In this document: in pieces, positions 1 through 32,316 of the stretch
How positions within the stretch are numbered: position 1 is the stretch's first letter
Layout of the letters: each line of letters starts with the position of its first letter
Assembly (NCBI GenBank): GCA_018057705.1
Contig: JAGPDF010000044.1
Span: 1-37,558, forward strand
Direction: 5' to 3'
DNA from: Thermoanaerobaculia bacterium
Lineage (GTDB): Bacteria > Acidobacteriota > Thermoanaerobaculia > Multivoradales > JAGPDF01
DNA length: 37,558 nucleotides
Program-made: the position numbers and the translations under genes
The notes under the pieces: model-generated
The model's input: the letters and a program-made list of their open reading frames with translations, nothing else
Told to the model about the DNA's origin: nothing
The model's database searches: none

Positions 1-917
1 ACGATCCAGTGCGGCACCTGCTGGGCAGCGAGGAACTCCTCGGCGCCTTCTCCGGAGAGCATCGCGAGCGTCGACAGGAGTCCGGCCTCGGTGCAGTTGC
101 CCGCCGCGACCGTGACCAGCCGGGGCGCCGACACCACCGGCCACCCGGTGCGCGGGTCGAGGATGTGGCCGTAGCGGACGCCGTCCTTGAGGAGGAAGCG
201 CCGCGCGTCGCCACTGGTGCAGACGGCGCCCTGGCGGACCTCGAGGATCTGTTCGGTGCGGGCCGAGGCGGGATCGTCCACTCCCACCACCCACGGTTCG
301 CCGTCGCGGCGCGGGCCGGTCAGCACCAGATCTCCTCCCAGATTCACCAGGCAGGCGACTTCCGGGGCGGCCTGCCGCAGCAGCAGCGCCGCGCGGTCCG
401 CGGCATACTCCTTGCCGAGGCCGCCGAGATCGAGCTCCATCCCGGCGGGCAGGGTGAGGACAGGTCGTCGCCAGGTCACGCGCTGCCAGCCCACCAGCGG
501 CACGAGCTCAGCGACCTGGGCCGCGGTCGGAACCCGGTCGCTGCCGTCGAACTTCCAGGCGCGCCGGAGCACTCCGGAGGTGACGTCGAACGCACCTTCG
601 GAGATGCGGTGGCAGCGGGCGGCGAAGTCGAGCAGATCGGCGGTTTCGCTATCCACCGCGAACGGTTCGCCGGCGGCGGCGTGCAGCCGGGCCAGCACCG
701 AGTCGCTGCGGTAGCGCGAGAACTTGGCCTCGATGCGGTGGACCTCGACGGCGGCAATCTCGGTCAGCCGGCGCGTCACCCGCCGGTTGCCACCTTCGAC
801 GAGGACTTCACAGGGGCTGGCCATGGCGTCGAAGCGGCCCGCCCCATGGCCGGCCGCCCGGCGCACACGGAGCGTGCCCGGATCGAAGGTCAGCGCCGCC
901 TCAGAAGGCGCACCCAA
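1..917 (-). CDS. apbE: FAD:protein FMN transferase (ApbE family), 3' end beyond the window
   Basis: ApbE enzymes move FMN from FAD onto a Thr or Ser of an extracytoplasmic target protein. About 305 residues are visible and the C-terminus runs off the left edge. Family landmarks, numbered from the proposed TTG start: DAMASPCEV near 30, LDLGGLGKEYAADR near 163, NLGGDL, GEPWVVGVDDP, TSGDARRF near 235 and GHILDPRTG near 250. The motif after it reads CTEAGLLSTLAML, so the usual metal-binding Asp of the ADALxT motif is not in register. The TTG start overlaps the end of the DUF3570 gene by 17 nt. The first ATG (position 824) would fall at the conserved MGT position and is too late. No signal peptide is evident. 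It is the last visible gene of a four-gene operon, and the neighbouring barrel is the obvious candidate substrate. The family call is firm; the start is uncertain. Confidence 0.9.
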   Translation of the reverse strand, partial: MGAPSEAALTFDPGTLRVRRAAGHGAGRFDAMASPCEVLVEGGNRRVTRRLTEIAAVEVHRIEAKFSRYRSDSVLARLHAAAGEPFAVDSETADLLDFAARCHRISEGAFDVTSGVLRRAWKFDGSDRVPTAAQVAELVPLVGWQRVTWRRPVLTLPAGMELDLGGLGKEYAADRAALLLRQAAPEVACLVNLGGDLVLTGPRRDGEPWVVGVDDPASARTEQILEVRQGAVCTSGDARRFLLKDGVRYGHILDPRTGWPVVSAPRLVTVAAGNCTEAGLLSTLAMLSGEGAEEFLAAQQVPHWI

Positions 918-2196
918 ACTGCACCATCAGCGCATCCACGGCAGGAAAGAGCTCGTAGTCTGCCAGCACTCCGGGTTGCGCGCCGGAGACGGTGCCACTC
1001 TGCTCGTAGTACTCGAGCTTGATGTTCCACTCGCGATCGTGGCGCATCGGGCGCCCGTACTTGAGGCCGAACGTGACGCCAGTGAGGTCGCCAAGCCGGT
1101 AGTCGGCGCTGGCGTGGCCGGGAAGGGCTTCGCCCGCCGCGAGATAGCGGGTATAGAAACTGGCGGCGGACTGCTGGTAGAGCCGGGCGTGAGGCTGCAG
1201 GTAGCCCGCCCCGCCGAGGTCCCAGCGATAGCGCAGGTCGATCGTATGTGAGCGGATCCGCCAGTCGTCCCAATGGTAGCGATAGCTCACGTCCGCCGCA
1301 TCCTCGGAGCGCATCTGGCGTTTGTAGGCCACGTAGAGACTCTGTTTCGTTCGCGCGTCGGGCCGCGACTCGTAGAGCTGATCGACCGGGTTCCCCTGGT
1401 TCGGGCCGGGCAAGGGGTCGATCAGGCTCACCAGCTTGTAGGGATCCGTCAGGTAGCCGGAGCTCCTGCCGACGCTGTAGTTGATCTGTACCAGGGAGCG
1501 GCGGTCGAGGATCTGCGTCAGCCCGAACAGCAGGTCGTAGAGCGACTTCGTGTCCCCGCTCCCGATGCGATTGAGCGGTGGGACTCCGCCGCCGTCGTCC
1601 TCACCACCGCCGGGAACTTCGGGCGACATGCTGCCGAGCGGCTCCGGCAGGCCCCCCACCGGGTCGACGGTGTCGTAGCCGAGCGCGGCCCCCAGCGAGA
1701 GCGTGGTGTTGCGTTGGTTGAAGTCGCGTGCCAGGACAGCATTGACCGAGTAGGAACCGTAGTCGTATTCGGTCGAGACATTGGCACCGAACGTCGCTTT
1801 CCAGAGCGGCGAGAGCGGCTTCTCCCAGCTCATGTTGAGCGCCCAGCGCGTGTCGAGGAAACTCGTGTCGAGCGGGGTCTCCCCCGGCTGCGTGGCGTAG
1901 CTCCCGTGACCCGAAGGCGTGGTGTAGGTCTGCGCCCGGGAGGAGGGCGTCGCGCCGTTGGCCGAGGCGCCGGTCAGCGAGTCAACCGTGAGTCGGAAAT
2001 TCAACGCCTTGCCGTCACCCCGGTCCCAGCGCGCCGAGACCACAGGTTCGATAGCGGTGACCCGGTTGGTTTCGCTGTAATAGAGCACCTGCGAGTCGAA
2101 GCTCCAGCCGTCGGCCTGCGCTGCAGGGCAGCCGAGCAGCACGCCGGTCGCCGCGGCCAGCGCCAGGCGCACGCTGTTGTCCCGATTCAGTTGCAT
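901..2196 (-). CDS. DUF3570-type outer-membrane beta-barrel protein with a possible flavin attachment motif
   Basis: The product has 431 residues. A signal peptide of about 28 residues ends in AAQA, followed by alternating aromatic and polar strands typical of an outer-membrane barrel (FDSQVLYYSETNRV, VSARWDRGDGKALNFRLTV), and the protein ends in Phe (QFGCAF). The region fits DUF3570 as I remember it. Residues 72-78 read DSLTGAS, followed by NGAT. This resembles the D-x-x-T-G-A-T/S motif in which ApbE attaches FMN to the last Thr or Ser. The ATG overlaps the preceding DUF4266 gene by 10 nt, and the stop lies inside the start of apbE, so translation is probably coupled. The reading frame is open upstream to 2793, but that part is a shadow of the two upstream genes. 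Barrel and family calls are good; flavinylation is inference. Confidence 0.82.
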   Translation of the reverse strand: MQLNRDNSVRLALAAATGVLLGCPAAQADGWSFDSQVLYYSETNRVTAIEPVVSARWDRGDGKALNFRLTVDSLTGASANGATPSSRAQTYTTPSGHGSYATQPGETPLDTSFLDTRWALNMSWEKPLSPLWKATFGANVSTEYDYGSYSVNAVLARDFNQRNTTLSLGAALGYDTVDPVGGLPEPLGSMSPEVPGGGEDDGGGVPPLNRIGSGDTKSLYDLLFGLTQILDRRSLVQINYSVGRSSGYLTDPYKLVSLIDPLPGPNQGNPVDQLYESRPDARTKQSLYVAYKRQMRSEDAADVSYRYHWDDWRIRSHTIDLRYRWDLGGAGYLQPHARLYQQSAASFYTRYLAAGEALPGHASADYRLGDLTGVTFGLKYGRPMRHDREWNIKLEYYEQSGTVSGAQPGVLADYELFPAVDALMVQFGCAF

Positions 2197-2549
2197 CCGC
2201 AGCCTCCGCCCGCAAAGCCCGAGCCACCGCTCGAGGCCTCTTTGCTGAAATAGATGTGTTCGTCGAGCGCGAGCTCGAGCGGATAGCCGTCGAAGCGCAT
2301 GCAGCGTTTGGCGAGCTCGCCGCGGTCCCAGGGCTTCGCCCCCAGGCGGGGAGCGGCCGGGGTCGCTTCCGGAGACGTGGCCGCGGCCTGCTCCGTGGCG
2401 GCGGACGCGGACGATGCGGGCGTCCCGGACGTCGAGGGCGATGCCGATGACGTGGACGATGCGCAACCCGCGAGCGCGCTCGCCAGCATCAACGCGAGCA
2501 GCGCCAGAATGGGTCGAGTCCGGTCGATCCAGCGGATCCTGCAGATCAT
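2187..2549 (-). CDS. DUF4266-type small lipoprotein ending in GGGCGCN
   Basis: The product has 120 residues. It has an N-terminal hydrophobic stretch and a lipobox LAGC with the lipidated Cys at 29, then a low-complexity Ser/Ala/Thr linker (about 30-70). The conserved C-terminal block includes PWDRGELAKRCM, LDEHIYFSKE and the Gly-rich end GGGCGCN. This block matches DUF4266 from memory. The C-x-C at 117-119 sits at the very end of the chain and could bind a metal or take part in disulfide exchange. The ATG overlaps the TGA of the thioredoxin-like gene (ATGA), and the 3' end overlaps the barrel start, so the three proteins are made together. It is probably anchored in the outer or inner membrane facing the periplasm. 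Its molecular role is unknown; the neighbourhood suggests it works with the barrel and ApbE. Confidence 0.82.
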   Translation of the reverse strand: MICRIRWIDRTRPILALLALMLASALAGCASSTSSASPSTSGTPASSASAATEQAAATSPEATPAAPRLGAKPWDRGELAKRCMRFDGYPLELALDEHIYFSKEASSGGSGFAGGGCGCN

Positions 2550-3016
2550 GGGGCCTCCTCGTCGAGCAGTTGCGCGATCCTGCTTTGGAGCTTCGCCTCA
2601 TCGGCCTTGCGAAAACCGCTCTGACGGAAGCGGGTCTTGCCGTCCCGCGCGATGAGCACGGTGGTCGGCATCCCTTCGAGCCGCCACTGCTCGGCGAGCT
2701 TCCCGGCCGGGTCGAAGGCGATCCTGAAGCCGACCGGAGTCTCGGCGAGGAACTCCTCCGCGAGGCGACGATCCGTGTCGACGTTGACCGCAATCACCAC
2801 CAGGCCCCGTTTCCCGTGCTCTGCCTGGAGCCCGTCCATGTAGGGAAAGCTCGCACGACAGGGTTGACACCAGGAGGCCCAGAAATCGAGGTAGACGACC
2901 TGGCCGGCGTAGGCTGAGAGGTCAAGCGCAGCGAGCTCCTCGTAGGCGGCCGCTGGCGGTCCCAGGAGCACCACGAAGACGAATACGAGAATTCCCGTTC
3001 TCTTGGCCAGGCGCAT
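2546..3016 (-). CDS. TlpA/ResA-like periplasmic thioredoxin
   Basis: The product has 156 residues. A membrane or signal helix (TGILVFVFVVLLGPPAAA) is followed by a thioredoxin fold with WASWCQPC as the redox site, the cis-Pro segment EGMPTTVLI, and an N-terminal part typical of peroxiredoxin-like TlpA proteins (GQVVYLDF). Such proteins reduce or oxidise Cys pairs outside the cytoplasm. I chose the ATG at 3016 because it starts directly before the signal helix and has a purine-rich GGGAG stretch upstream; the frame is open further upstream to 3094. It is the first gene of the minus-strand operon and ends in an ATGA overlap with the DUF4266 gene. A TATACA hexamer lies about 31 nt upstream. A likely partner is the C-terminal C-x-C of the DUF4266 lipoprotein, which is inference. 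Confidence 0.9.
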   Translation of the reverse strand: MRLAKRTGILVFVFVVLLGPPAAAYEELAALDLSAYAGQVVYLDFWASWCQPCRASFPYMDGLQAEHGKRGLVVIAVNVDTDRRLAEEFLAETPVGFRIAFDPAGKLAEQWRLEGMPTTVLIARDGKTRFRQSGFRKADEAKLQSRIAQLLDEEAP

Positions 3017-3138: not shown

Positions 3139-5880
3139 TTGAACGACAACGAACGACGCGACCTCGGGCCCGGCAGTTCGCTCGCCCACTACCGCATCAC
3201 CGCCAAGCTCGGCGAAGGCGGCATGGGCGAGGTCTGGAGCGCCACCGACACCCGACTCGACCGCGAGGTCGCCATCAAAGTGCTGCCCGCCGCGTTAACA
3301 GAAGACAAGGAGCGCCTGGCACGTTTCGAACGCGAGGCGAAGCTCCTCGCCCAGCTCAACCACCCGAATATCGCCCAGATCTACGGCCTCGAAAGCAGCG
3401 GCGCGACCCACGCCCTCGTCATGGAGCTCGTCCCCGGCCCGACCCTGGCCGAACGCCTCGAATCCGGGCCTCTTCCCTTTTCTGAGAGCGTTTCTTTCGC
3501 GCTGCAGATCGCGCAGGCGCTCGAAGAGGCGCACGAGAAAGGCATCGTCCATCGTGACCTCAAGCCCCAAAACATAAAGGCTTCCAGTGAAGGCAAAGCC
3601 AAGGTCCTCGATTTCGGATTGGCCAAAGCGATGGAGGCAGCGCCCGGTTCCGCGTCCGCCACCGATCTCGCGCGTTCGCCGACGCTGATGAACTCCCCCA
3701 CCCTGACCGCGGTCCACGGCACCCAGCTGGGCATCATCCTGGGCACTGCGGCCTACATGGCGCCGGAGCAGGCGCGCGGCGCGGCCGTCGACAAGCGGGC
3801 CGACATCTGGGCGTTCGGAGTGCTCCTCTACGAGATGCTCACCGGCGAGCGTCTGTTCGAGGGCGACAGCGTCGTTGACACCCTCTCGGCGGTGATGCGC
3901 AAAGAGATCGATCTCGGTCGCCTCCCCGCCGGCACACCGGGGGTGATCCGGCAGCTCCTGCGCCGCTGCCTCGAACGCAACCCGAAACGGCGGCTGCACG
4001 ACATCGCCGATGCGCGGATCGTGCTCGAGGACGTATTGGCTGGCGTCGACGTCGACGAGCGGGGGGCACCGGTTGGGCGAGCGCAATCGCGCACGCCCGG
4101 GCGAACTCACCTGACCTGGCTCGCCGGTCTCCTCATCGCGGTCGCCGGCACCGCCCTTCTCACCCGCTTCGCGGGTGAACACGGCGCGGCGCCGGGCGAG
4201 CCGCAGCGCCTGGCCATCCATCTTGCCAACGACCAGGAACTGGCCATCGGCGGCAACTCCCTGCTGACCTTTTCGCCCGACGGGCGCAGCCTGGTGTTCG
4301 CCGTGATGGAGAAGGGTCGGCGAGCGATCTACCGGCGCGAGCTCGGCCAACGGGACGCCGAAAGGATCGAAGGCACCGAAGACGGCGAGGCGCCCTTCTT
4401 CTCGCCCGATGGCCGCTCGCTCGGCTTCGTCGCGCGGGGACAGGTGATGAAGGTCGCGGCCGCGGGGGGCCGCCCGGTCCGCATCGGCGAGGCGCGCGGC
4501 GCGGGCGGCGCGACCTGGCTCGACGACGGCACGATCGTGCTGGCGCCGATCTACTCCGACGGGCTCTTCCGCATGACCGCCGAGGGCGCCAACCTGACAC
4601 GGCTGACGACCCCCGATCGCGACGCCGGCGTGCTCGGCCACTGGTGGCCCGACGAGGTTCCCGGCGGACGGTGGGTGTTGTTCACCGCGTTCCGAACGCC
4701 GGTCGACACCTCGCGGGTCGGCGCTGTCGACCTCACCACAGGGGAAGTCCGCTGGCTCGTCGAGGGCGGCTTCTTCGGCCGCTACCTGGCGACCGGGCAT
4801 CTTCTCTACGCCAAGGGGCAGCGTCTCTACGCCGTGCCGTTCGACGCCGCGACGGCCACCGTGGGCGGTGCGGCCGTGACCGTTCTCGACGACCTGCTCG
4901 TCGAGCAGACTGGCGGCTTCGCCATGCTGGCGGTGTCGCGCCGCGGCACGCTCGCCTACGTCAGCGAGTCGCTCGGCCACCTGCCGACCGAGCTGGTCTG
5001 GCTCGATCGCGCCGGGATCGCAACGCCGGCGGCGACCGAGCGCCGGCGCTACCTGACCGTCGGCCTCTCGCCCGATGGCCGTCGGGCGGCTCTCACCGTG
5101 CAAGGCGAAAGCCGCGACCTGTGGGTTCTCTCGTTCGACCGGGGCACCCTCTCGCGCCTGACCAGTGGCGACGACACGGAGTTCGACCCCACATGGACGC
5201 CCGACGGCAACGAGCTGATCTACGTCGTGGACCGTCCGCCGTTCGAGCTCCATCGTATTGCCGCCGGAGCACCCGACTCCGGACGCCCGGTCTGGAACGA
5301 GCCGGCGGAGCTCGACCACACGACGCCGGTCGTCGCGCCCGATGGCCGGACGGTCGTCTACAGCCTGACCGAGGAGGGTACGGGGACGAATCTCTACGCT
5401 CGCCCGTTCGCCGGCGGCGAGCCGCGGGCGCTCCGCGCCAGCCGCGGCCAGGAGCTGTACGCCTCGTTCTCGGCGGACGGCCGTTGGCTCGCCTACGAAT
5501 CGGACGAAACCGGGCGCCCGGAGATCTACGTCGAGGCGTTTCCGGGACCGGGGGAGCGCGTCCAGGTCTCCGCCGACGGCGGGCGTCAGCCGCGCTGGGC
5601 CGCCAACGGCGAGCTCTTCTACCGTCATGACGACGAACTGCGCGTCGTCGTGACGCGCTTCGACGGGCGCTTTGCCTTCGAGCCGCCGCGCTCGCTGTTC
5701 CGGTATCCAATAAAGCAGAGCAGCAGCGGCGGCACCGAGGCCCACCTCTACGACGTCAGCGCCGACGGCCGGCGCCTCCTGGCCATTACCACCCCGGAAA
5801 CGCTGCGACCACGGCAGATCGACATCGTCACCGAATGGACGACCGAGCTCGTTCGCCTGATGTCCGGGGGCAAACCGTAG
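3139..5880 (+). CDS. Receptor-type Ser/Thr protein kinase with C-terminal PD40 propeller (K1)
   Basis: The product has 913 residues. The N-terminal kinase domain has the glycine loop GEGGMGEV (25-32), ATP Lys47, HRDLKPQN with catalytic Asp140, DFG at 158-160 and MAPEQ at 207-211. The activation loop carries the Ser/Thr-Pro run RSPTLMNSPTLT, plausible autophosphorylation sites. One membrane helix lies at about 325-343. The remainder is a WD40/TolB-like propeller made of repeats such as [22 protein letters not shown] and FSADGRWLAYES. The kinase should face the cytoplasm and the propeller the periplasm; the ligand is unknown. The start is TTG with no ribosome site. K1 differs from the other four in lacking the MIGxRLGPYE opening, with a longer N-terminus instead. 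It converges on the esterase gene, and a dead kinase 5' end lies just behind it. Confidence 0.93.
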   Translation: MNDNERRDLGPGSSLAHYRITAKLGEGGMGEVWSATDTRLDREVAIKVLPAALTEDKERLARFEREAKLLAQLNHPNIAQIYGLESSGATHALVMELVPGPTLAERLESGPLPFSESVSFALQIAQALEEAHEKGIVHRDLKPQNIKASSEGKAKVLDFGLAKAMEAAPGSASATDLARSPTLMNSPTLTAVHGTQLGIILGTAAYMAPEQARGAAVDKRADIWAFGVLLYEMLTGERLFEGDSVVDTLSAVMRKEIDLGRLPAGTPGVIRQLLRRCLERNPKRRLHDIADARIVLEDVLAGVDVDERGAPVGRAQSRTPGRTHLTWLAGLLIAVAGTALLTRFAGEHGAAPGEPQRLAIHLANDQELAIGGNSLLTFSPDGRSLVFAVMEKGRRAIYRRELGQRDAERIEGTEDGEAPFFSPDGRSLGFVARGQVMKVAAAGGRPVRIGEARGAGGATWLDDGTIVLAPIYSDGLFRMTAEGANLTRLTTPDRDAGVLGHWWPDEVPGGRWVLFTAFRTPVDTSRVGAVDLTTGEVRWLVEGGFFGRYLATGHLLYAKGQRLYAVPFDAATATVGGAAVTVLDDLLVEQTGGFAMLAVSRRGTLAYVSESLGHLPTELVWLDRAGIATPAATERRRYLTVGLSPDGRRAALTVQGESRDLWVLSFDRGTLSRLTSGDDTEFDPTWTPDGNELIYVVDRPPFELHRIAAGAPDSGRPVWNEPAELDHTTPVVAPDGRTVVYSLTEEGTGTNLYARPFAGGEPRALRASRGQELYASFSADGRWLAYESDETGRPEIYVEAFPGPGERVQVSADGGRQPRWAANGELFYRHDDELRVVVTRFDGRFAFEPPRSLFRYPIKQSSSGGTEAHLYDVSADGRRLLAITTPETLRPRQIDIVTEWTTELVRLMSGGKP

Positions 5881-18857: not shown

Positions 18858-21800
18858 CTACCTCGCCTGGGCCTCACCGAGGACGACGGCCAGACGATGC
18901 ACCGCCCCGTCGTCGGCGAGGGGAACGGCGGCCGGATCGACGCGGACGCCGTCGAGCAGTGCGCTCGCCACGCCACGGCAGCGCTGGTGCGGATTCTCGA
19001 CGGTGATCTCGTAGCGCGAACCGCCGTAGCGGAAGGTGAGCGAGAAGCCGCTCCACGCCGCAGGGATGCAGGGGGCGAGAGCGAACGTCTTTCCTGCGAG
19101 GCGCAGTCCGAGAATGCTCTCCAGCCCGGCGCGATAGAGCCAGCCTGCCGCGCCGGTGTACCAGCTCCAGCCGCCCCGCCCGGCATGCTCGGGATGGGCG
19201 TAGACGTCGCCCGCGAGCACATAGGGCTCGGCCTTGTAGCGCTCGACGTCGGCGCGGCTGCGGCTGTGGTTGATCGGATTGAGCATGTGGAAGAGCTCGA
19301 CCGCCTCGTCGCCGCTCCCCAGCGCCGCGACGGCCATCACGACCCAGATGGCGGCATGGGTGTACTGTCCGCCGTTCTCGCGCACTCCGGGCGGATAGCC
19401 GCGGATGTAGCCGGGGTCCTGGGCCGAAACGTCGAACGGCGGCTGTAGCAGCAGCACCTGGGAGGTCCCGCGCTTGACGAGGTGCGCCCGCACCGCGTCG
19501 AGCGCGCGATCGGCAAACTTCAACGGGACGGCCCCAGAGAGCACCGCCCACGATTGGGGCAGGGAGTCGATCCGGCACTCGTCGCGTGCCGCCGACCCGA
19601 GCGCCGAACCGTCGTCGTAGTAGCCGCGCCGGTACCACTCGCCATCCCAGGCAAGCTCCAGGGCGTTGACGAGCCGCTCCGCCTGGGTTCGATAGCGCTC
19701 GGCGCGCGCCTCGTCGCCGCGCTCGGCGGAGAGAGCCGCGAAATCTCCGAGAATGCCGTGGAGGAAGAAGCCGAGCCAGGTGCTCTCGCCGCGTCCCTCT
19801 CTCCCGACCCGATTCATGCCGTCGTTCCAGTCCCCGCTGCCCATCAGGGGGAGACCGTGGCCACCCACTGCCTGCGAGCGATCGATCGCCAGCAGGCAGT
19901 GATCGAACAGCGAGCCGGATTCGCCAGCGAGCCCGGGAAGGAAATAGGCCTCGTCCACTCCGGGCTCGAGCACCGGGGCGGCGAGGTAGGGCACGCGTTC
20001 CTCCAGTACCGCGAGATCGCCGGTCGCACGAACGTAATGCGCGACGGCGAACGGCAGCCAGAGGAGGTCGTCCGAGCAGCGTGTTCGCGTTCCCTGGCCC
20101 CCGGGCGGGTGCCACCAGTGCTGGACGTCGCCCTCCACGAACTGTCGTGCCGCCGCGCGCAGAAGGTGCTCCCGTGTGAGATCCGGCCGGGTGAAGAGCA
20201 GCGCCAGCGTGTCCTGCAGTTGATCGCGGAATCCGAAGGCGCCGCCCGGCTGGGAGTAACCCGACCGCGCCCAGATGCGGCAACCGAGCGTCTGGTAGAG
20301 CAGCCACCGGTTCATCATCACGTCGAACGAATCGTCCGGCGTCTTCACCTCGATCCTCCCCAGCATCTCGTCCCAGGCGGCGAGAGCGCCGTCGCGGGCG
20401 ACCTCGGCGGCGGCGACCGTGCCATGTCGGGCGATGAGCGCGCGAGCATGCGCCGCGTCGTCGCCTTCTCCGAGCAGGACGACGAGGTAGCGCACCTCGC
20501 CCGGCGCGAGCTCGAGGTCGACCGCGAGCGCCGCGCAGGGATCGAGGCCGGCGCCGAAGTCGCCCGCGAGCTCGGCCAGTGCGAGGGCCGCCGGTGCGGC
20601 GAGCGAGCCGTTGCGTCCCAGAAACGAAGCGCGGTCGCCGCTCGCCCCCCGCTGTGCCTCGCTCGTCGAGAGAAAAGCGACCCGCCTGGCGAAATCGCGC
20701 CCGAACGGGTTCCTCGCCAGCACCGCTCCGGTCTCGCTGTCGAGCTCGGTGATCACCTGTCGGTGCTGGTCCGGAGACGGCGGACCGAGAGCCCATTCGC
20801 AGTAGGCGAAGGCGCGGAGGCGCCGCGGCCGGTCGCTTTCATTGGTGAGCGTGAGCAGCGAGAACTTCACCGGTTCGGTCCGGTGCACGAAGATCTCGAG
20901 CTCGTGCCGGATGCCCTCCGCGAGGCGGGAGAAGCGGGTGATGCCCGCGGCGTGCCGGACGGTCCATCGAGCCTCCGTCCGCATCCCCCCTGCGTGCGCC
21001 AGGCCGGAAGGCCCGGCCGCTCCGCGATAGCGCATCGGTCCCGGCGTCGGCGTCCAGAGGGCTCCGCTGTCCTCGTCCCGCAGGTAGATCGCCTCGCCCG
21101 TCGGATCGCTGACCGAATCGCCAGCGTGCGGCGTCAGCCGGTTTTCCCGACTGTTCATCGACCAGGTGAAGGCCGAGCCCGAGGAGCTCACGATCGTCCC
21201 GAAGTCCGGATTGGCGATCACGTTCGTCCATGGCAACGGTGTTTCGCGGTCGCCATCGAGCACGATGCGGTACTCCCTGCCACCCTCCACGAAGCCGCCG
21301 AGATGGTTGGCCAGGAGCAGCGGCTCGGCCCCTCGCCGGCGCTCCGCCTCGCCGGCGAGTTCGGGCGATCGAGCGCTCCTCTCGGCGCCACCACTCTCGT
21401 CCCTTCGCGCCTGCACCTCGAGACGCTGGGCCGGGAAGGCGGGCAGAGGGGGATCCGGCCGGTCGAGATGCTGGGCGAGCGACCCGCGACCGCTGTCGAG
21501 GACGGCGGCCGCAGCCGCCGCAAAAAGCGCGCGCTCCGCCTCCGCCAGGCTCCCGCCGCGCAGCAGGAAGGCTCCGCCGGAACGGTGTCTCCAGGAGCGC
21601 CAGGGCCCGTCGTCGAGCAACGCTTCGAGCTGCGTCTGCATCTCGTCGAGATAGCTCGCCGGGTTGTCGTTGATCAGCACGACGTCCGCGGCGAGCCCCT
21701 TGAGGCGCCAGTACTCCTGCGCCTGCAGGACCTGGCGGGCCAATTGCAAGTCGTCGCCCTCCCCCACCCGAACCAGCAGGATCGGCAGGTCGCCCGAGAC

Positions 21801-24800
21801 AGCGTGCGGCCAGAGGCTCGCCTGTCCGAGGACGTTGCCGGCCAGCGACTGCCGCGGCGCCCGCAGGGAGCCGTCGGCATAGAGGGCGCGCGACGCCAGT
21901 CGTTCGAACAGCACGGCCTCGTCGGCGCTCACCCCGAGGTGCCGCCGATCGCTGTGGGCGTGCGCGAAGGCCAGCGCGAAGGTGCGGGCCCCGGTGCCGG
22001 CGTCGTGGTACTTGTGCGCGAGCGCGACCGCGTCCTCGCGGCTGCCCGCGACGCCAGTGGCAAAGGTGAGGCGCGCCGACGCCCCAGGCGCGAGGCGCAG
22101 ACGCTGACGAAGGCAGGCGACGGGGTCGAGCACGGCACCGGTCGTGCCGCTGAGCGGCCGGCCGTCGAGCGCCGCCGGATTCGAGAGATCGCGTCCCCGG
22201 CCGAGGAATCGGGCGCGGTCGCTCTCCCATTCCACCGGTCCCTGCGCCCGGCCTTCCAGCCCCAGCACGTGAACGGCCCAGGTCGCGCCCACCGTCGGCG
22301 TTCGCGAGCGGCGGCGAAAGAGCAGGGCGGCGGCGTCCCCGAGCAGCTCGCTCTCGACGAATAGCTTGGCGAACGCCGGGTGGGCCAGGTCGTCTGCCGG
22401 CGAAGCCAGGACGATCTCGGCATAGCTCGTGACTTCGATCTCACGCGGACGGTCGCTATGGTTCGTGACCCGCAGGCGCCGCACCTCGAAATCGTCCTCG
22501 GTCGACACCGCGATCTCGAGCAGCGTGGCGATGCCCTCCGCGCGTCGCCGGAAGGTGGCCTTCTCCGGCTGGAAGGTGGCCAGGTAGTCCTTCGGGCTGG
22601 CGTCCGCAGGTGCCTCGTATCGGGTCGGCAGGAAGGTCGGTCCCCACACCGCGCCGCTGCGCACGTCGCGCAGGTAGATCGTCTGACCGGCGGGGTCGCA
22701 GGTCGAATCGGCGCGATGCCGCGTGACCGCCAGTCCGCGGTGAAAGCTCGCTCCACCACCGGCGTTGGTGACCACCACCGTGTAGCTGCCGTTCGACAGG
22801 AACTGGGCGTGCGGGAAGGTGGTGTGCGGCGTGCGGAAGCGTCGCAGCATCACCGCCGGAGCCGGCATGGAGGCCCGCGTCGCTTCGGCGGGGCGCGGCT
22901 GCGTCACCGGCGCCTGGCGGGGGATTCGCTCCTGGAGCAGCAACTCCGTGGCGCGCACCCGCGGATCGGCGTGAAAGCGCTCGACCATCGGCTGACCCAG
23001 CAGGACGTTGGCGAGCGCGACCAGGGTCATTCCCTGGTGGTGCGCCATGTAAGTGCGGATGATCTCGCCTTCCCGGCGCTGCGGCCGGCTGCCGCCCCCG
23101 CTATCGCTCTCGCCTTCGGACTCGCCCGGCAGGCCACCGCCGCGCGGCGTGTAGTCGACCGCCTCGTAGAAGCCGAACTCGCCTTCGAGCCCCAGCCCGG
23201 CCAGGCGGCGGAAGTTGCGCGCCGCCGCCGCCGGCTCGACCATCGCGGCGAGCGCCGTTGCGTAGGGCGCGATCACCAGGTCGTCGCCGAGACCGCGCTT
23301 CAGGCCGAGCCCGGGAACCCCGAACGCCTGGTACTGATAAGTGTCGTGGCGGTCCACCGCGCTGAACGCCGACTCGGAGATTCCCCAGGGCACGCCGCGC
23401 TCGCCCGCGTAGCGCCGCTGCATCCGCACCGCCATCCGGCACGTTCGCTCGAGCAGCGTCTGCGCGTAGCTGCGCATGAAGAGCTGCGGCATGAGGTACT
23501 CGAACATCGTCGAGCTCCACGACAGGAGCGTCGGAGAACCGTCGACGCTCGTCACCAGGCGCCCGAGATGGAACCAGTGTGACTGCGGCACGTCGCCGCG
23601 GGCGATCGCGATGAAGCTGGCGAGGCGGGACTCGGAGGCCAGGAGATCGTAGAACGACGGATCGAGCCGCCCCGGGGCCTCCGCTTCGGCCAGACGATAG
23701 CCGATCGAGAAAATGCCCCGCTCGCGATCGTAGAGGAAGGTGAAGTCGATGCCGTCGGCGAAGGCCGCAGCGCGGGCGGCGAGGCTGCAAAGCTGCGCTT
23801 TGCGGTCCGCCGCCTCCCTCTCGGCGCTCGCCGCCTGGCGCAACCCTTCGGCAAGGCAGAGGAGCGCGCCCGAGAGATTGCCGCTGTCGACCGTCGAAAC
23901 GTATCGCGGCTCGAGCGCCAACAGGGTCCGTGAGTCGTACCAGTTCAGCAGATGCCCCTTGTGGCGCTCCAGCCGCTCCATCGCGTCGAGCGCCCTGGCG
24001 GTGCGAAGGACGAGCTCGTCGATGCCGATGAACCCCAGATCCCGCGCCGCGAGCGTCGCGAGCAACCCCATCCCGATGTTCGTCGGCGAAGTGCGGTGGG
24101 CGATGCGGGGCTCCGGCACCTCCTGGAAATTGTCCGGCGGCAGGCCATTGTCCTCAGGGCCAGCGAAGGTGGCGAAGAAGCGCCAGGTATTGCGCGCCAC
24201 TCCTTCGAGGTAGAGCCGATCCTCGGGACCGAGCTCGATCTCCGGCGGCGCAACCGGACGGCTCAGCCAGTAAGCGAGGAGCGGCGCGAGCAGCCACAGA
24301 AGCAGGATGGGAGCGGCGACCGGGAGCGCGGCCGGGTGCAACGTCGCGACCAGCGCCAGAGCGGTGAGCGCGCCCCAGGAGCTCGACGCCATCTGGCGGC
24401 AGAACCGCCAGGCGAGCGCACCCCTGCCGGCCGGGGCGGCGCGCGCGCCACCCTGGGTCCGATCGTCGCGCGCGGCACTCGCCGCAGAGGTCTCCCATTC
24501 GAGGAGCCTGCGGCGCGTGAAGCCGAGGCGAAAGAGCGTGACGACGATGGCGTGCGCCATCTGCCAGGACTGGTAGGCCAGAAAGGCGATCTGCAGGGCG
24601 AGTCGGGCCGCTTCGGTCGCGAGCGCGCTGCCGACTCGCCGGAAGAAGACCCGCCAGGGCTCGTGGCGCTCGGGTCCGCCGAGCGACGCCGCGAGCAACG
24701 GGTAAACCGGAAAGGCCAGGGCGAGAACCACGAAGACGGTCCAAGCCAGCGCCGCGCCCGGCAGCAACGACCAGCCCGCCACGAGGAGCGCCGCCGTCAC

Positions 24801-27389
24801 CGGCGGGACGAGGCTACGGCGGAGATTGTCGAGGATCTTGAAGCGCGCGATGAGCGGCAGGCGATTGCGCTCGACGCCGCCGGCCCGGTTGCGCACGAAC
24901 GGGAACAGCCAGCGCAGAATCTGCCAGTCGCCGCGCACCCAGCGATGCTGCCGCCGGGCGTGGGTCAGGACACTCGCCGGATAGTCGTCCACCAGCTCGA
25001 CATCGGTGACCAGCGCCGTACGGGCGTAGATCCCCTCGAACAGGTCGTGCGAGAGCAGCGCGTTCTCGGGCACCCGGCCTTCGAGCGCCGCGCTGAAGGC
25101 GTCGACGTCGTAGAGCCCTTTGCCGGTGAAGATCCCCTCGGCGAAGAGATCCTGGTAGGTGTCCGACACCGCCGTGGTGTAGGGGTCGACGCCGGTGTGA
25201 CCGGCGTAGAGCCGCGCAAAGAGCGAACCGGCGGCGCTCGCCATGGTGACGCTGACCCGGGGCTGCAGGATGCCGTAGCCTTCGACCACGCGGCCGAGAG
25301 CGTGATCGATGCGCGCCCGATTCAGGGGGTGCACGATAATGCCGATGAGCGCGCGCGCCGCTTCGCGGGGCAGGCGGGTGTCGGAGTCGAGGGTGATGCA
25401 GTAGCGCACGCCCGGCAGCAGATCCCGCTCTCCGACCACGAGGTTGAAGCTCGTGTCGGTGGCACCGCGCAGCAGGCGATTGAGCTCCTCCAGCTTGCCG
25501 CGTTTGCGCTCCCAACCCATGAATGCCCCTTCGCCCGGATTCCACAGGCGAGGGCGATGCAGGAGGAAGAACCGGCCGCAGGAGACCGCCGGATGACGAG
25601 CGTTGAGCGCCTCGATCCCCGCCTTCGCCGCCGCGACGATCGCTGCGTCGCCCGGCATTTCCGCCTGCGGAGCGTCGGTGAAATCGCTCAGGATCGCGAA
25701 GTGGATGTTGGGGTCGGTATTGCCCAGGGCGAGCACCTCGAGGTGCTCGACCATCTCTTCGACCCCGACGACGTCCTTGAAGAGCGTCGGAACGACGACG
25801 AGAGTGCGTGCCGACGGCGGAATGCCCGCGGAAGTGTCGATTCGAGGCAGGCGGCGCGGCGGAACCAGGCGCGCGACCAGCCGCTGAACGACCGCGATCG
25901 CGAGCTCGCTCGCCGGCAGGAACAGGAGGAGCGCCGCCAGCAGCGCGAGCTCCACGCCAGCACCCTGTCGCCGGGCGTAGGCGACCCCGAGCGCCACGAG
26001 GCCGCCGGTGAGCAGCGCGATCGAAGAGAGGTAGAGCCCCGTCGCGTGCGCGAAGGCGTAGCGGCGGGCTCGCAGACGCAGCCGCGGGCGATGGGCGATG
26101 TCGGATTCGAGACCGAGGCGGCCGCGCCCGACCAGGTGATATCCGACGTGCGCCGCGCGGTCGTCGCTCGCGCGGCTTCCTGCAGCGCCCGCGGCGCTTT
26201 CCGCGGCGAGGTGCTCGGCCGCCTGGCGCGCGCTCTCGACCGCCCGAAGGGCCACTCGCATCTGCGCATCGCCGTTTCTCTCGGCGAGCTCCTCCACCGC
26301 TTGGCGATAGCGGTCCCGGGAGAGGAAGTCCATGCGCCCGTAGGCTGCCGCCGGGTCCTGCTGCAAAGCGCGATCGACGAGACTCACCGCCTCGAAGTAG
26401 GCGCTCCAGTCGAGCGTCGCCACGAAGCGCAGGCTGCCGATCACGTTGCCGATCGAAACCTGGGCGGCCGCCTGCTGCTGGTGCTCGGCCCGGATGACCT
26501 CTTCGGCGCTCGACTGCTGCTCCTCGAGATAGGCGTCGATGGCGCCGCGCACCGCGGTGAGGCGCGGCCCCCCTTCGCGGATCCGCTGGAGCAACTGGAC
26601 GATGTAGGCCGTATGGAGGCTGGGCGGCAGTCTCGGCAGCGCCCCGTGACCGCTCTCGTCGATGTGGTCGACGAAGCTGTTCGCGGCGCGCCGGGCGGCG
26701 CGCGCCTCGAGCGTGCGGGCGGCGAGGCGGCGCAGGTTCTCGATCAGGCCGAGCCGCAGCATGCTCGGCCAGGCCCAGAGCTCGCCGATGGTGAGCGGCG
26801 CGACGGTCTGGAAGCTGTTGAGGAAGCGGACAAGGTGGGACCGCTCGAGCTTGCTGTCGCTGTGGCGGATGAGCTCGACGGCAAGTGCATAGATGCGCGC
26901 GGTGCCGCGCAGCTCGCGCAGTGCGAGCTTCGGAAGCTCGCGAAAATACCCGCGCGGCAGGTCCTGCCGGATGCCGCGGATCTCGGACGAGACGACGTGG
27001 TAGTTGTCGAGAATCCACTCGCCGGCCTGGGTGACGAACTCGCCGCGATGAACGTCGTCGGCCATCAGCCGGTAGGCGGCTTCGAGGAACCGTGCATTGT
27101 CCTCCAGGCGCGGGTAGTTCCGCTGCGCGCTCCGCCCGGGCGCCGGATCGACGGTGAATCGGGCCGCCAGCGCTTTGGCGCGCTCTTCGAGCTGCTCGAT
27201 GCTCGACAGTTCGTCCCGGAACGGCCGGTCGAGCTCCGCCGGCGCGCGGCGGAAGATCCGGCTCGCGAGTTCAGTCCAGGGAAAGGGCAGCAGTCCGCCT
27301 CCTCGTAGGGCCCGAGCACTGTGGGCCGGTTTCGACCCTACACGCAGCCGACGGCCCCCACCACCGCACTTTCTACCCGGCTTGGGCAC
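18858..27389 (-). CDS. ndvB: Cyclic beta-1,2-glucan synthase (NdvB/Cgs/ChvB type)
   Basis: The product has up to 2843 residues, close to the roughly 2850 usual for Cgs. Order: N-terminal helical domain (to about 440); two membrane helices (about 455-510); GT84 glycosyltransferase with TLDSDTRLP near 663 and QHRWVRGDW near 816; further membrane helices (about 870-920 and 1010-1050); a glucoamylase-like cyclisation region (about 1100-1400, with [20 protein letters not shown]); then two GH94 beta-sandwich units (from about 1520 and 2040) and a GH94 catalytic barrel with [13 protein letters not shown] near 2523. Known Cgs enzymes build UDP-glucose-derived linear beta-1,2-glucan, trim it by phosphorolysis and close the ring for export to the periplasm. 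The start is uncertain: GTG at 27389 has no ribosome site, and a CTG at 27293 follows a GAGGAGG. No exporter gene is adjacent. Confidence 0.93.
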
Positions 27390-28136: not shown

Positions 28137-28207
28137 CCGCCCAGGAGTGTGGCGCCACGGCCCGGCACAGCTGGAGGCGGAAGCCGACAGTGCGGTCCGG
28201 GGTCGGG

Positions 28208-28213
28208 TAGGAT
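28208..28213 (+). promoter_or_regulatory. Possible -10 box (TAGGAT) of kinase gene K4
   Basis: TAGGAT ends 10 nt before the TTG start, and the flanks nearly match those of the K2 promoter at 9422-9450. No Shine-Dalgarno sequence lies between. Confidence 0.5.
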
Positions 28214-28223
28214 CAACGGTGAA

Positions 28224-30953
28224 TTGATCGGACAACGGCTCGGTTCCTACGAGATCACCGCCAAGCTCGGCGAAGGCGGCATGGGGGAGGTCTACCGTGC
28301 GACCGATTCGCGCCTCAGGCGCGAGGTGGCGATCAAGGTCCTGCCGGCGGCGTTCACGCAAGACAGGGAGCGCCTCGCGAGGTTCGAACGCGAAGCGCAG
28401 CTCCTCGCCCAGCTCAACCATCCCAACATCGCACAGATCTACGGATTGGAGACCAGCGGCGCGACGCACGCTCTCGTTATGGAGCTCGTCCCCGGCCCGA
28501 CGCTCGCCGAACGCCTCGAATCCGGGCCTCTTTCCCCTACTGAGAGCCTTTCCTTCGCGCTGCAGATCGCGCAGGCGCTCGAAGAGGCCCACGACAAGGG
28601 GATCGTGCATCGCGATCTCAAGCCCCAGAACATCAAGGCTTCCAGTGAAGGAAGGGCCAAGGTCCTCGACTTCGGCCTGGCCAAAGCAATGGATGCGACG
28701 GGCTCCGGATCATCGGCCGCCGATTTCGCGCGCTCTCCCACGATCCTGAATTCGCCGACCCTCACCGCGGTGCACGGCACCCAGCTCGGAGTGATCCTGG
28801 GTACCGCGGCGTACATGGCTCCCGAGCAGGCACGCGGCGCCGCGGTCGACAAGCGGGCCGACATCTGGGCCTTCGGTGTGGTGCTGTACGAGATGCTCAC
28901 CGGCCGCTCGCTCTTCGCCGGGCCCACGGTCTCCGACACCCTCGCCGGCGTGCTCAAGAGCGAGATCGACTGGCGGGCGCTGCCCGCCGGGACTCCGGTC
29001 GCCATTCGCAGCCTCTTGCGCCGCTGCCTCGAGCGCAACGCGAAGAACCGCCTGCACGACATCGCCGACGCGCGCATCGTGCTCGACGAGGTGCTCGGCG
29101 GCGGACCCGAGGAGGTGCTGCCACTCGCGGCAGAAGCGAGACCGGCCGCCCGGACGCGCGGCTGGACGTGGGGGCTGGCGGCCGGGGCGCTCGGCGTCGG
29201 CCTCGGACTCGGCGCGCTCGCCTTCCGCGCCGCCGCGCCTCCGGAGGTCGCGACGCAGGGCGCCGCGGTGCATGCCGAGTTCGAGATCGCCACGCCCCTC
29301 GCGACGACGATGGTGAGCGGGCTCGCGCTGTCGTCGGACGGACGTCAGCTCGCCTTCGTGGCGCGCGGCAAAGACGGGCGCACGGCGCTCTGGGTGAGGG
29401 CGCTCGGCTCGACCGAGGCGAAGGAGCTGCCGGGGACAGTCGACGCACGTTTTCCGTTCTGGTCGCCCGACGGTCGCCGGCTCGGCTTCTTCGCGCAGCG
29501 CCGGCTCAAGGTGATCGATCTCCTCGGCGGCTCGCCGCGCGTCGTCGCCGAGACGGGTTCGACGCAGGACGCCCGTGGCGGGGCGTGGAGCGCGGACGAT
29601 CGAATCGTGTTCGCGCCGACCTTCACCGGGACGCTCTTCGTCATCCCGGCGTCCGGCGGCGAGGCCGTGCCGGCGTCGCGGATTCCCGCCGGAACCGATA
29701 TCGGTACGCAGCGCTTCCCGAGCTTTCTCCCCGACGGCGAGCGCTTCCTCTTCTTCGCCTCGACAGGCACCGGGATCGAACCGGGCACGGCCTATCTCGG
29801 GCGGCTCGGTTCGCTCGAGGCGAAGAGGCTCGGCCCGGTGACATCCTCCGCGTTCTACGCCGCTCCGGGCTTCCTCATCTTCGTCCAGGGCGATGCACTG
29901 GTCGCGCAACGCTTCGATGACGGGAAGGAAGAGCTCGTCGGCGATACCCTCAGCCTGGGCGTTTCCCTCCCAGGCAGCGTCAGTGTCTCCGGCCAGCGGT
30001 CTCTCGCCGTCTCGGCGAACGGCGTCCTCGCCTATCGGGCGGACAAGCGCAACGGCACGCGCCTCGTCTGGGTCGACCGCCGGGGTGTGGAGTCGGGACA
30101 GCTGAACGATGACGACCGGAACTGGCACTACGCACCGGTCCTCTCTCCCGACGGCAAGAGGGTCGCGGTCTCCTACTACGAAGTCGGCGCCACCAGCGGC
30201 GGAATCTGGATCCACGATCTGGCGCGGCGCTATTCGACGCGGCTCACCAACGGCGAGTCCGGCGACGACACGCTGCCGGTCTGGTCGCCCGACGGACGTG
30301 AGCTCGCCTTCGGGCGAGTCGGACCCGCCGGGACGAGCGGCATCTATCGCATGGACGTAGGGCGGCCGGGCAGCGAGAGCCGGTGGTTTTCCGACGACGG
30401 TTTCCTGGCGCCCAGCGCCTGGCTGACCGACGGGACCGGACTGCTCGAGCAGCGCTTCGATGCCTCGGGCAGGGGTTCGATCTGGTGGCGGTCGTTGGCG
30501 ACGCAGGCGCCCCCGAAACTCCTCGGCTCCGAGCAGGCGTCGGAGTGGGGCGCGGTCGCTACGCTCGACGGGCGTTGGATCGCCTATGCGTCGGACGCCA
30601 CGGGGCGCATGGAGGTCTACGTCCGCCGGCTCGACGAACCCTCCAATTCGCCCGTTCGGGTCTCCATCGACGGTGGCGTGTCCCCGGCCTGGCGCGGCGA
30701 CGGCCGGGAGCTCTTCTACGTCGACGACGGCGGGCGCATCGTCGCCGTCCCGTTCGAGCCCTCGGATCCACCGCAGATCGGAGTGGGCGTGCCGCTCTTC
30801 CAGGGCGGACTCGAAGAGGCGGCGGACCGCCAGTTCGACGTCACCGCCGACGGCCAACGCTTCCTGCTGAACCGGAACTTCGCTTCCCCGGGAGAACCGA
30901 TCCGGGTCGTTCTCGGGTGGCGCGAGCGGCTGCAGCAGGGCCCACAGCGATGA
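28224..30953 (+). CDS. Receptor-type Ser/Thr protein kinase with C-terminal PD40 propeller (K4)
   Basis: The product has 909 residues and opens with [19 protein letters not shown]. Kinase landmarks: Lys38, HRDLKPQN (Asp131), DFG and MAPEQARG, with activation-loop [14 protein letters not shown] membrane helix lies at about 314-335. Propeller repeats include LALSSDGRQLAFVA, FWSPDGRRLGFFA, LSPDGKRVAVSYYE, VWSPDGRELAFGR and VTADGQRFLLN. I start at the TTG of 28224, not at the open frame upstream to 28149, because the MIGxRLG opening and TAGGAT box match K2. Positions 28534-28684 are identical to K5 (32623-32773). A dead kinase 5' end begins inside its stop codon (ATGA). It follows toxin-antitoxin pair 1. 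Confidence 0.93.
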   Translation: MIGQRLGSYEITAKLGEGGMGEVYRATDSRLRREVAIKVLPAAFTQDRERLARFEREAQLLAQLNHPNIAQIYGLETSGATHALVMELVPGPTLAERLESGPLSPTESLSFALQIAQALEEAHDKGIVHRDLKPQNIKASSEGRAKVLDFGLAKAMDATGSGSSAADFARSPTILNSPTLTAVHGTQLGVILGTAAYMAPEQARGAAVDKRADIWAFGVVLYEMLTGRSLFAGPTVSDTLAGVLKSEIDWRALPAGTPVAIRSLLRRCLERNAKNRLHDIADARIVLDEVLGGGPEEVLPLAAEARPAARTRGWTWGLAAGALGVGLGLGALAFRAAAPPEVATQGAAVHAEFEIATPLATTMVSGLALSSDGRQLAFVARGKDGRTALWVRALGSTEAKELPGTVDARFPFWSPDGRRLGFFAQRRLKVIDLLGGSPRVVAETGSTQDARGGAWSADDRIVFAPTFTGTLFVIPASGGEAVPASRIPAGTDIGTQRFPSFLPDGERFLFFASTGTGIEPGTAYLGRLGSLEAKRLGPVTSSAFYAAPGFLIFVQGDALVAQRFDDGKEELVGDTLSLGVSLPGSVSVSGQRSLAVSANGVLAYRADKRNGTRLVWVDRRGVESGQLNDDDRNWHYAPVLSPDGKRVAVSYYEVGATSGGIWIHDLARRYSTRLTNGESGDDTLPVWSPDGRELAFGRVGPAGTSGIYRMDVGRPGSESRWFSDDGFLAPSAWLTDGTGLLEQRFDASGRGSIWWRSLATQAPPKLLGSEQASEWGAVATLDGRWIAYASDATGRMEVYVRRLDEPSNSPVRVSIDGGVSPAWRGDGRELFYVDDGGRIVAVPFEPSDPPQIGVGVPLFQGGLEEAADRQFDVTADGQRFLLNRNFASPGEPIRVVLGWRERLQQGPQR

Positions 30954-31840: not shown

Positions 31841-32095
31841 GTGCGCACCCAGTTTGTGGACACTCCGCCGGAGATCGAAGCGATCCAGGTGCGGCTGTTT
31901 CGCGAGATGGGTCCGCGCGGCCGCCTCACCGCAGCGGCAGAGCTGAATGACGCACTCGACGATCTCGCCCGGGCTGGAATCCGTTCGCGCCATGGGGACC
32001 TGCCGGAGGCCGAGGCCCGGTTGCGGCTGTTCGCGCTCCGCCTGAGCCGTGAGCAGATGGTCCACGCCTTCGGCTGGGACCCCGGCCGCTCGTGA
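31841..32095 (+). CDS. Small helical protein of unknown function
   Basis: The product has 84 residues with a GTG start. A TAGAAT hexamer (31828-31833) ends 7 nt before it, and there is no ribosome site. The frame is also open back to 31757, but that part is kinase debris. The sequence is mostly helical (PPEIEAIQVRLFREMGPRGRL, AAELNDALDDLARAGIRSRH). From memory it belongs to a small uncharacterised family (helix ending in AGIRxRH, then a segment of Glu and Leu) often found just ahead of a nucleotidyltransferase-like gene. The next frame, overlapping by GTGA, is a piece of exactly such a gene. It may be an antitoxin-like partner, but this is inference. Confidence 0.6.
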   Translation: MRTQFVDTPPEIEAIQVRLFREMGPRGRLTAAAELNDALDDLARAGIRSRHGDLPEAEARLRLFALRLSREQMVHAFGWDPGRS

Positions 32096-32316
32096 CGACC
32101 GGCCGCGAGCCGAACGAGGTCGACCTGCGCGACGGCTTCAAGGCGGACATCTACCTCGCGGCTCGGGACGCCTTCGGCCGGGAGCAGTTCGCCCGCCGTC
32201 AATCGATCGAGCTCGCGCCGGGGACCTGGCTGCCGTTCGCTTCGCCCGAGGACGTCGTCCTGCAGAAGCTGCGCTGGTACCGCTTGGGCGAGGGCGTGTC
32301 GGGACCACGCCGATGA
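32092..32316 (+). pseudogene. Truncated nucleotidyltransferase-like gene, cut by kinase K5
   Basis: The frame has 74 codons starting at a GTG that overlaps the preceding stop. DLRDGFKADIYLAARDAFGR, ARRQSIELAPG and FASPEDVVLQKLRWYRLGEG match the middle of a family of AbiEii/DUF6036-like nucleotidyltransferase proteins of about 200 residues, from memory. The usual N-terminal GG...A / D-x-D part and the C-terminal half after KLRWYRLG are missing. The last codons (VSGPRR) run straight into the ATG of K5 (ATGA overlap). The gene seems to have lost both ends, the 3' end by joining to the kinase. It is unlikely to be active. Confidence 0.6.

Follow-up and report, generated by a model that had tools for sequence, protein, structure and literature searches.

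Can an outer-membrane beta-barrel carry a covalently attached flavin and, if so, on which side of the membrane does the flavin lie and in which compartment is it attached? The question is posed by a DUF3570 gene in the window (the whole 37,558-nucleotide stretch of DNA that was analysed), in whose product an initial annotation had recognized a candidate ApbE acceptor site. That interpretation is supported, and it was largely anticipated by Meheust et al. (2021; PMC8238504): a flavinylated DUF3570 protein is not a new idea. What follows deals mostly with the sidedness of the site, the compartment of its modification and the source of its electrons.

The locus and its published relatives

The DUF3570 gene belongs to a minus-strand operon (3016-3) in which thioredoxin/ResA-like, DUF4266, DUF3570 and ApbE genes follow one another in that order, all four together (Table 1). 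The Pfam match of its product to PF12094 has an E-value of 2.9e-130 and a score of 435 bits (cut-off 25), and extends over profile positions 4-426 of 427. The transferase gene does lie directly downstream, as had been pointed out, its start overlapping the DUF3570 stop; it is incomplete because the contig ends at window base 1, and the closest relative of the locus (L002/L038, with a 95% identical DUF3570 protein) has a complete apbE. The thioredoxin matches the Redoxin, AhpC-TSA and Thioredoxin models of Pfam.

Table 1. Features of the operon in window coordinates
Feature	Position	Strand	Basis
DUF3570 (PF12094) outer-membrane beta-barrel, 431 aa, 16 predicted strands, C-terminal Phe	901..2196	minus	Pfam match, fold model
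Sec-type signal peptide region, ~residues 1-28, without twin arginine	2113..2196	minus	sequence read directly
Predicted extracellular loop 2, ordered, residues 76-113, joins strands 3 and 4 and holds Ser78	1858..1971	minus	DSSP, pLDDT; sidedness from strand parity and fold matches
DSLTGAS flavinylation motif	1963..1983	minus	translation and 167-member alignment; acceptor role by homology to PMC8238504
Ser78, predicted FMN acceptor	1963-1965		homology to PMC8238504
TTPSG (residues 92-96), second-motif region of two-site relatives; without acceptor consensus here	1909..1923	minus	alignment
apbE, FAD:protein FMN transferase (PF02424), without signal peptide; last few codons missing at contig end	3..917	minus	Pfam, alignment, hydropathy rule
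DUF4266 (PF14086) small lipoprotein, LAGC lipobox, C-terminal GGGCGCN	2187..2549	minus	Pfam
CGCN C-terminus of DUF4266, CxC redox motif	2190..2201	minus	kept in 165/166 loci
Secreted thioredoxin/ResA/TlpA-like protein, signal peptide and WCQPC active site	2546..3016	minus	Pfam, sequence read directly

Clusters of ApbE, DUF3570, thioredoxin-like and DUF4266 genes, with or without DsbD, have been described, 316 of them without DsbD (PMC8238504). All four gene families of the DsbD-associated cluster are also present in the window operon, with the difference that the thioredoxin of the published cluster is PF13899 and that of the window is Redoxin/ResA-like. A Pfam scan of the window genes on the thioredoxin side found no DsbD, the apbE side being the contig end. 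The window locus is a member of this published system, of a form that has a single acceptor site.

The experimental precedent is the Chlorobium luteolum DUF3570 protein (ABB24424.1), which is flavinylated by its cognate ApbE (ABB24423.1). ApbE-associated DUF3570 proteins have two conserved [S/T]GA[S/T] motifs; the C. luteolum protein becomes UV-fluorescent in gels when co-expressed with ApbE, and the fluorescence is lost only in the double Ser-to-Ala mutant (PMC8238504). The window protein shares with it the Pfam family, the ApbE partner and the acceptor motif, and differs in having one site instead of two. The signal peptides were removed from the C. luteolum constructs, which were expressed in E. 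coli, and the DUF3570 protein was found mostly in the pellet of lysed cells and purified under denaturing conditions (PMC8238504). Since the substrate was signal-less and largely insoluble, ApbE can evidently act without an assembled barrel. The C. luteolum ApbE was made signal-less by truncation; the window ApbE has no signal peptide to remove.

The motif and its conservation

DSLTGAS, encoded by 1963-1983 on the minus strand, makes up residues 72-78 of the DUF3570 protein (start ATG at 2196), and translation and alignment bear out both its position and its agreement with the ApbE acceptor consensus, given in a recent review as D-x-x-[S/T]-G-A-[S/T] (PMC12052999). It is the sole match to that consensus among the 52,240 residues of the stop-to-stop frames of at least 100 aa in the window. 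Composition-preserving shuffles of the protein produced a match in 132 of 20,000 cases (0.7%). Conservation makes the stronger argument that the motif is a real one, as judged from the aligned proteins. The full consensus is satisfied in 126 of 167 aligned DUF3570 proteins; the D and the position-4 S/T (166 each) and the final S/T (167) come close to the invariance that had been asked about, but the G (146) and the A (148) do not. Non-consensus SSAS, TGSS and SAAS forms are found beside apbE, and some close relatives of the window protein have TGSS or TGPS despite a linked apbE, which counts against the explanation that we favour below.

Motif and transferase gene travel together: apbE is linked in 149 of 168 DUF3570 loci, for which the available flank was often only 1.5 kb. 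We take Ser78 to be the acceptor because a homologue has been shown to be flavinylated at [S/T]GA[S/T] motifs (PMC8238504), and consider it very probable, by homology, that the window protein is modified at this residue. A further candidate for a second site, SGAQ near the C-terminus (SGAQPGV), was discarded, being SGVQ in a sister genome and not conserved.

The DUF3570 family

The 168 loci come from Acidobacteriota, Pseudomonadota, the phyla of one Zixibacteria and one Fibrobacter/Latescibacterota genome, and two Hymenobacter plasmids, which provide the Bacteroidota examples (one of them frameshifted). The motif region sorts the proteins into types. Type A, to which the window protein belongs together with proteins of Gammaproteobacteria and others, has DxLTGAS (in some members TGSS or TGPS); type B (Acidobacteriota) has DxISGASPTG; type C has a tandem DNISSAS...DxVS[SG]AS; type D reads DAISAASDSCARCH; type E has DTVSSASIDVxxTAS; type F (Proteobacteria) often has a second motif some 15-30 residues on, as in DTVSGGTPIWVDTVSGAS. 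Each of the types A to E is a single group in the tree; support for A is 94/67, and the other four have full support. We refer to types A, B and F below as group I. The signal peptide of group I proteins contains an unusually conserved stretch resembling ATCxLLG (A2 consensus; AATGVLLG in the window), which is not a lipobox.

Relatives with a second acceptor-like motif in the same loop, ~15-30 residues downstream (L173, L174, L177, L165, L166, L168, L169, L170 and L026), probably represent the published two-site form. The window protein has no second acceptor motif, TTPSG standing where some relatives have one; to judge from the alignment, the second motif was either lost from the window type or never present in it.

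A few loci are out of the ordinary. Genomes of the Zixibacteria phylum have second DUF3570 copies (L225, L226, L227) that are accompanied by DUF4266, without linked apbE or thioredoxin; these copies keep the motif (DGLTGAT/S), and the other DUF3570 copy in each genome has apbE. Broken copies also occur: the ApbE of L015 is spread over two frames, and the DUF3570 of L215 (Hymenobacter DG25B plasmid) is in two genes. A tblastn search of plasmids with the window protein returned only distant, unannotated Vibrio matches.

Barrel fold and sidedness of the loop

The AlphaFold (AF2) model built from 80 relatives (pLDDT 91.8, pTM 0.86) has 16 strands: 31-42, 47-60, 63-75, 114-127, 132-143, 146-159, 164-177 and 215-231 (strands 1-8), followed by 234-247, 281-294, 300-310, 315-326, 332-342, 371-384, 388-401 and 420-430 (strands 9-16). 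It superseded a first model made from 12 sequences (pLDDT 74), but fold searches were run with that first model. The top matches are outer-membrane barrels: the BamA barrel aligns collinearly over residues 28-431 (VIA-align Z 22.9), and OmpC, FhaC and BcsC also match. A closed barrel, an even number of strands, termini on the same side and a terminal aromatic residue (Phe431) are all features of the predicted structure, and we have little doubt that the window DUF3570 protein is an outer-membrane barrel. The proposal of an ApbE acceptor site within such a barrel finds support from the homologue experiments (PMC8238504), from the 16-strand fold and from the pairing with apbE.

The long loops of the model (76-113, 178-214, 248-280, 343-370 and 402-419) all come after odd-numbered strands, and should therefore be extracellular if the N- and C-termini are periplasmic, as they are in the matched barrels. 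The motif comes at the end of an early strand, as had been noticed (strand 3, 63-75), and Ser78 would accordingly lie at the start of extracellular loop 2, an ordered segment flanked by DSSP strands, with a block pLDDT of 86-95. Of the two locations that had been suggested for it, a periplasmic turn or a surface loop, the model favours the second. We think it probable that loop 2 is extracellular; the model also allows that it may instead fold into the lumen, where it could be reached from the periplasm.

A heme motif at the acceptor position

Type D, from one class of Acidobacteriota, carries a different redox signature at the same place. All 14 of its loci (L229, L025, L027, L029, L030, L031, L230, L231 and L234-L239) read DA[IV][ST][AGS][AS]SDSCxRCH, in which a CxxCH heme-c motif follows two residues behind the flavin acceptor, and one of them, L229, combines CxxCH with the full flavinylation consensus (DAITGASDSCARCH). 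These heme-type proteins form a single clade (support 100/100). Most of their loci keep a linked ApbE; it was not seen in four, where the flank is short. The heme-type ApbE retains the catalytic His, but has GGN in place of GGD and, mostly, DPRTL or DPRTM in place of DPRTG. Because the sister clade places a heme-c motif at the same position of the loop, the loop is likely, as far as comparison of the sequences goes, to be a site of electron transfer.

A putative thiol-to-flavin redox unit

The explanation that we prefer treats the thioredoxin, DUF4266, DUF3570 and ApbE (genes 3016-3) as one redox unit. The dedicated, signal-less ApbE would place FMN on Ser78 of the cytoplasmic DUF3570 precursor; the FMN-bearing chain would then be exported by Sec and assembled by BAM, with the flavin ending up either on extracellular loop 2 or at the loop's entry into the mouth of the barrel. 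The secreted thioredoxin and the CxC lipoprotein DUF4266 would hand electrons to the flavin, and the barrel would serve as a surface thiol-to-flavin redox site, for example in the reduction of metals or minerals. Taken as a whole, we hold this account to be somewhat better than an even bet. The most likely function of DUF3570 is that of a redox site at the surface which receives electrons through a thiol relay; that thiol proteins in particular are the electron source is a proposition that falls a little short of even. We are inclined to doubt the full combination, namely attachment of FMN in the cytoplasm to a Sec-exported barrel, a flavin on an extracellular loop that is hidden from any ApbE once the barrel is mature, heme c beside or instead of flavin in the sister clade, and a cytochrome-poor route for electrons across the outer membrane that is powered by thioredoxin and a CxC lipoprotein.

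Barrels that hold a redox chain at the outer membrane are familiar from the porin-cytochrome conduits of the MtrAB type. The likeness is one of outline: MtrAB has a multiheme cytochrome as its partner, whereas here a CxC lipoprotein takes that place and the barrel itself would carry the flavin (or one heme c in the sister clade). The resemblance to NqrC/RnfG (FMN_bind) and to NqrB/RnfD is of a different kind. These share the ApbE consensus and a Ser/Thr-phosphodiester FMN with the predicted site, but are small soluble or inner-membrane proteins of unrelated fold.

The flavin might instead serve a closed periplasmic or outer-membrane function, such as quality control or the uptake of metal through the barrel, without export of electrons. 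DUF4266 and thioredoxin are, after all, thiol proteins rather than cytochromes, no multiheme protein adjoins the heme-type loci that were inspected, and a VIT1 iron transporter is found in 25 published DUF3570 clusters (PMC8238504). The acceptor loop is, however, predicted to face outward, and the sister clade has its heme-c motif at the same position; both point the other way, and we regard a closed function as unlikely on balance.

A dedicated ApbE subfamily and the compartment of flavinylation

Both the catalytic His and the DPxTG region are present in the window ApbE (GHILDPRTG, aligned with SHIIDPTTG of FmnB, and also when compared with other solved ApbE enzymes). It has neither a signal peptide nor a lipobox, and no hydrophobic N-terminus is available in its frame. 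Essentially all of the ApbE proteins beside types A, B and F (~135 loci) likewise lack a signal peptide, as called by a simple hydropathy rule rather than by SignalP, a rule that passes over some evident cases. Several of these ApbE frames open only 12-25 residues ahead of the domain (e.g. L046, L048 and L054). Among linked ApbE proteins the rule-positive cases are L011 and, in L204, an additional ApbE of another kind; L011 lies in a 705-codon read-through frame, and we judge its call to be spurious. Where these genomes have further full-length ApbE genes, most of them encode signal or lipoprotein peptides; among these controls, L120 has a hydrophobic N-terminus that escaped the rule, and L145 appears to have none.

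The subfamily also keeps close company with its presumed substrate. Of 297 Acidobacteriota genomes, 14 give a score above 298 bits with a profile of this subfamily (A3). They are exactly the genomes that have DUF3570 of type A or B, the two genes being adjacent in every case; the profile included part of the sequences that it matched, eight of the genomes not being represented in it. The next best score elsewhere is 230 bits; in a fifteenth genome (G170) the gene is broken and scores 204 bits. Three Thalassotalea/Thalassomonas genomes have DUF3570 without linked apbE; two encode a member of the subfamily elsewhere (L148, L149), and the third has only an ApbE fragment at a contig edge (L138). 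Since the dedicated, linked ApbE subfamily is without signal peptides, we infer that FMN is attached to group I barrels in the cytoplasm, before export, a conclusion drawn from gene content and N-termini to which we give a slight preference.

The alternative is flavinylation in the periplasm, by an ApbE that is exported along an unrecognized route or by another, exported ApbE, with loop 2 accessible through the lumen. The DUF3570 proteins of types C, D and E pair with ApbE proteins most of which have signal peptides (encoded beside the DUF3570 gene in types C and D, 6-18 kb from it in type E), and three more ApbE genes are present in the window genome, one of which adjoins an FMN_bind gene and has a clear signal peptide. 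Set against these are the strict co-inheritance and adjacency of the signal-less subfamily with group I DUF3570 and the lack of any hydrophobic N-terminus in ApbE frames that start 12-25 residues before the domain, and we consider periplasmic attachment to group I barrels distinctly unlikely. Two genomes, G603 and G676, carry both systems, with one unexported and one exported ApbE.

On another view the motif is a structural feature, a turn of the barrel, that in this lineage carries no flavin or has ceased to carry one, and the thiol proteins serve barrel assembly or disulfides. This would agree with retention of the D and the final S in proteins whose G or A is replaced, but is very improbable given that flavinylation at [S/T]GA[S/T] has been demonstrated directly for a family member (PMC8238504) and that a dedicated ApbE is strictly co-inherited. 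Type E had been considered as an ApbE-less set in which the motif would be structural, and was rejected as such: it has no apbE within ~5 kb, but a genome-wide search located one 6-18 kb off in at least six genomes, and most of these ApbE proteins have a signal peptide. Gammaproteobacterial type E loci (L216-L224, L259, L260 and L264-L267) include thioredoxin, DUF4266 and nearby envelope genes, and some genomes hold both group I and type E systems.

What appears to be new

The predicted outward-facing loop, the apparent attachment of flavin inside the cell before export and the heme signal at the same spot in a sister family look new. Full-text searching of the literature yielded a single paper that mentions DUF3570 by name, PMC8238504. 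The terms barrel, porin and CXXCH are absent from its main text; a 2024 follow-up (PMC11334425) does not name DUF3570 and refers to the outer membrane in one summary sentence only; and the outward loop, the signal-less dedicated ApbE and the heme motif at the same site were not found in the text of either. If this account is right, ApbE flavinylation can precede the export of an outer-membrane protein, which would explain how a flavin comes to be placed on an outward-facing loop. Widespread flavin- or heme-tagged barrels may then carry thiol-derived electrons to the cell surface, in a system that would span Pseudomonadota, Acidobacteriota, Zixibacteria, Fibrobacterota/Latescibacterota and Bacteroidota.

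Other genes of the window

The remainder of the window has some features of its own. Three of its genes (3139-5880, 28149-30950 and 32049-35081) encode Ser/Thr protein kinases fused to PD40 beta-propeller repeats, and the minus strand at 18864-27389 encodes a 2842-residue GH94 protein with glucoamylase-like and glycosyl hydrolase 94 domains, of the cyclic beta-glucan synthase type.
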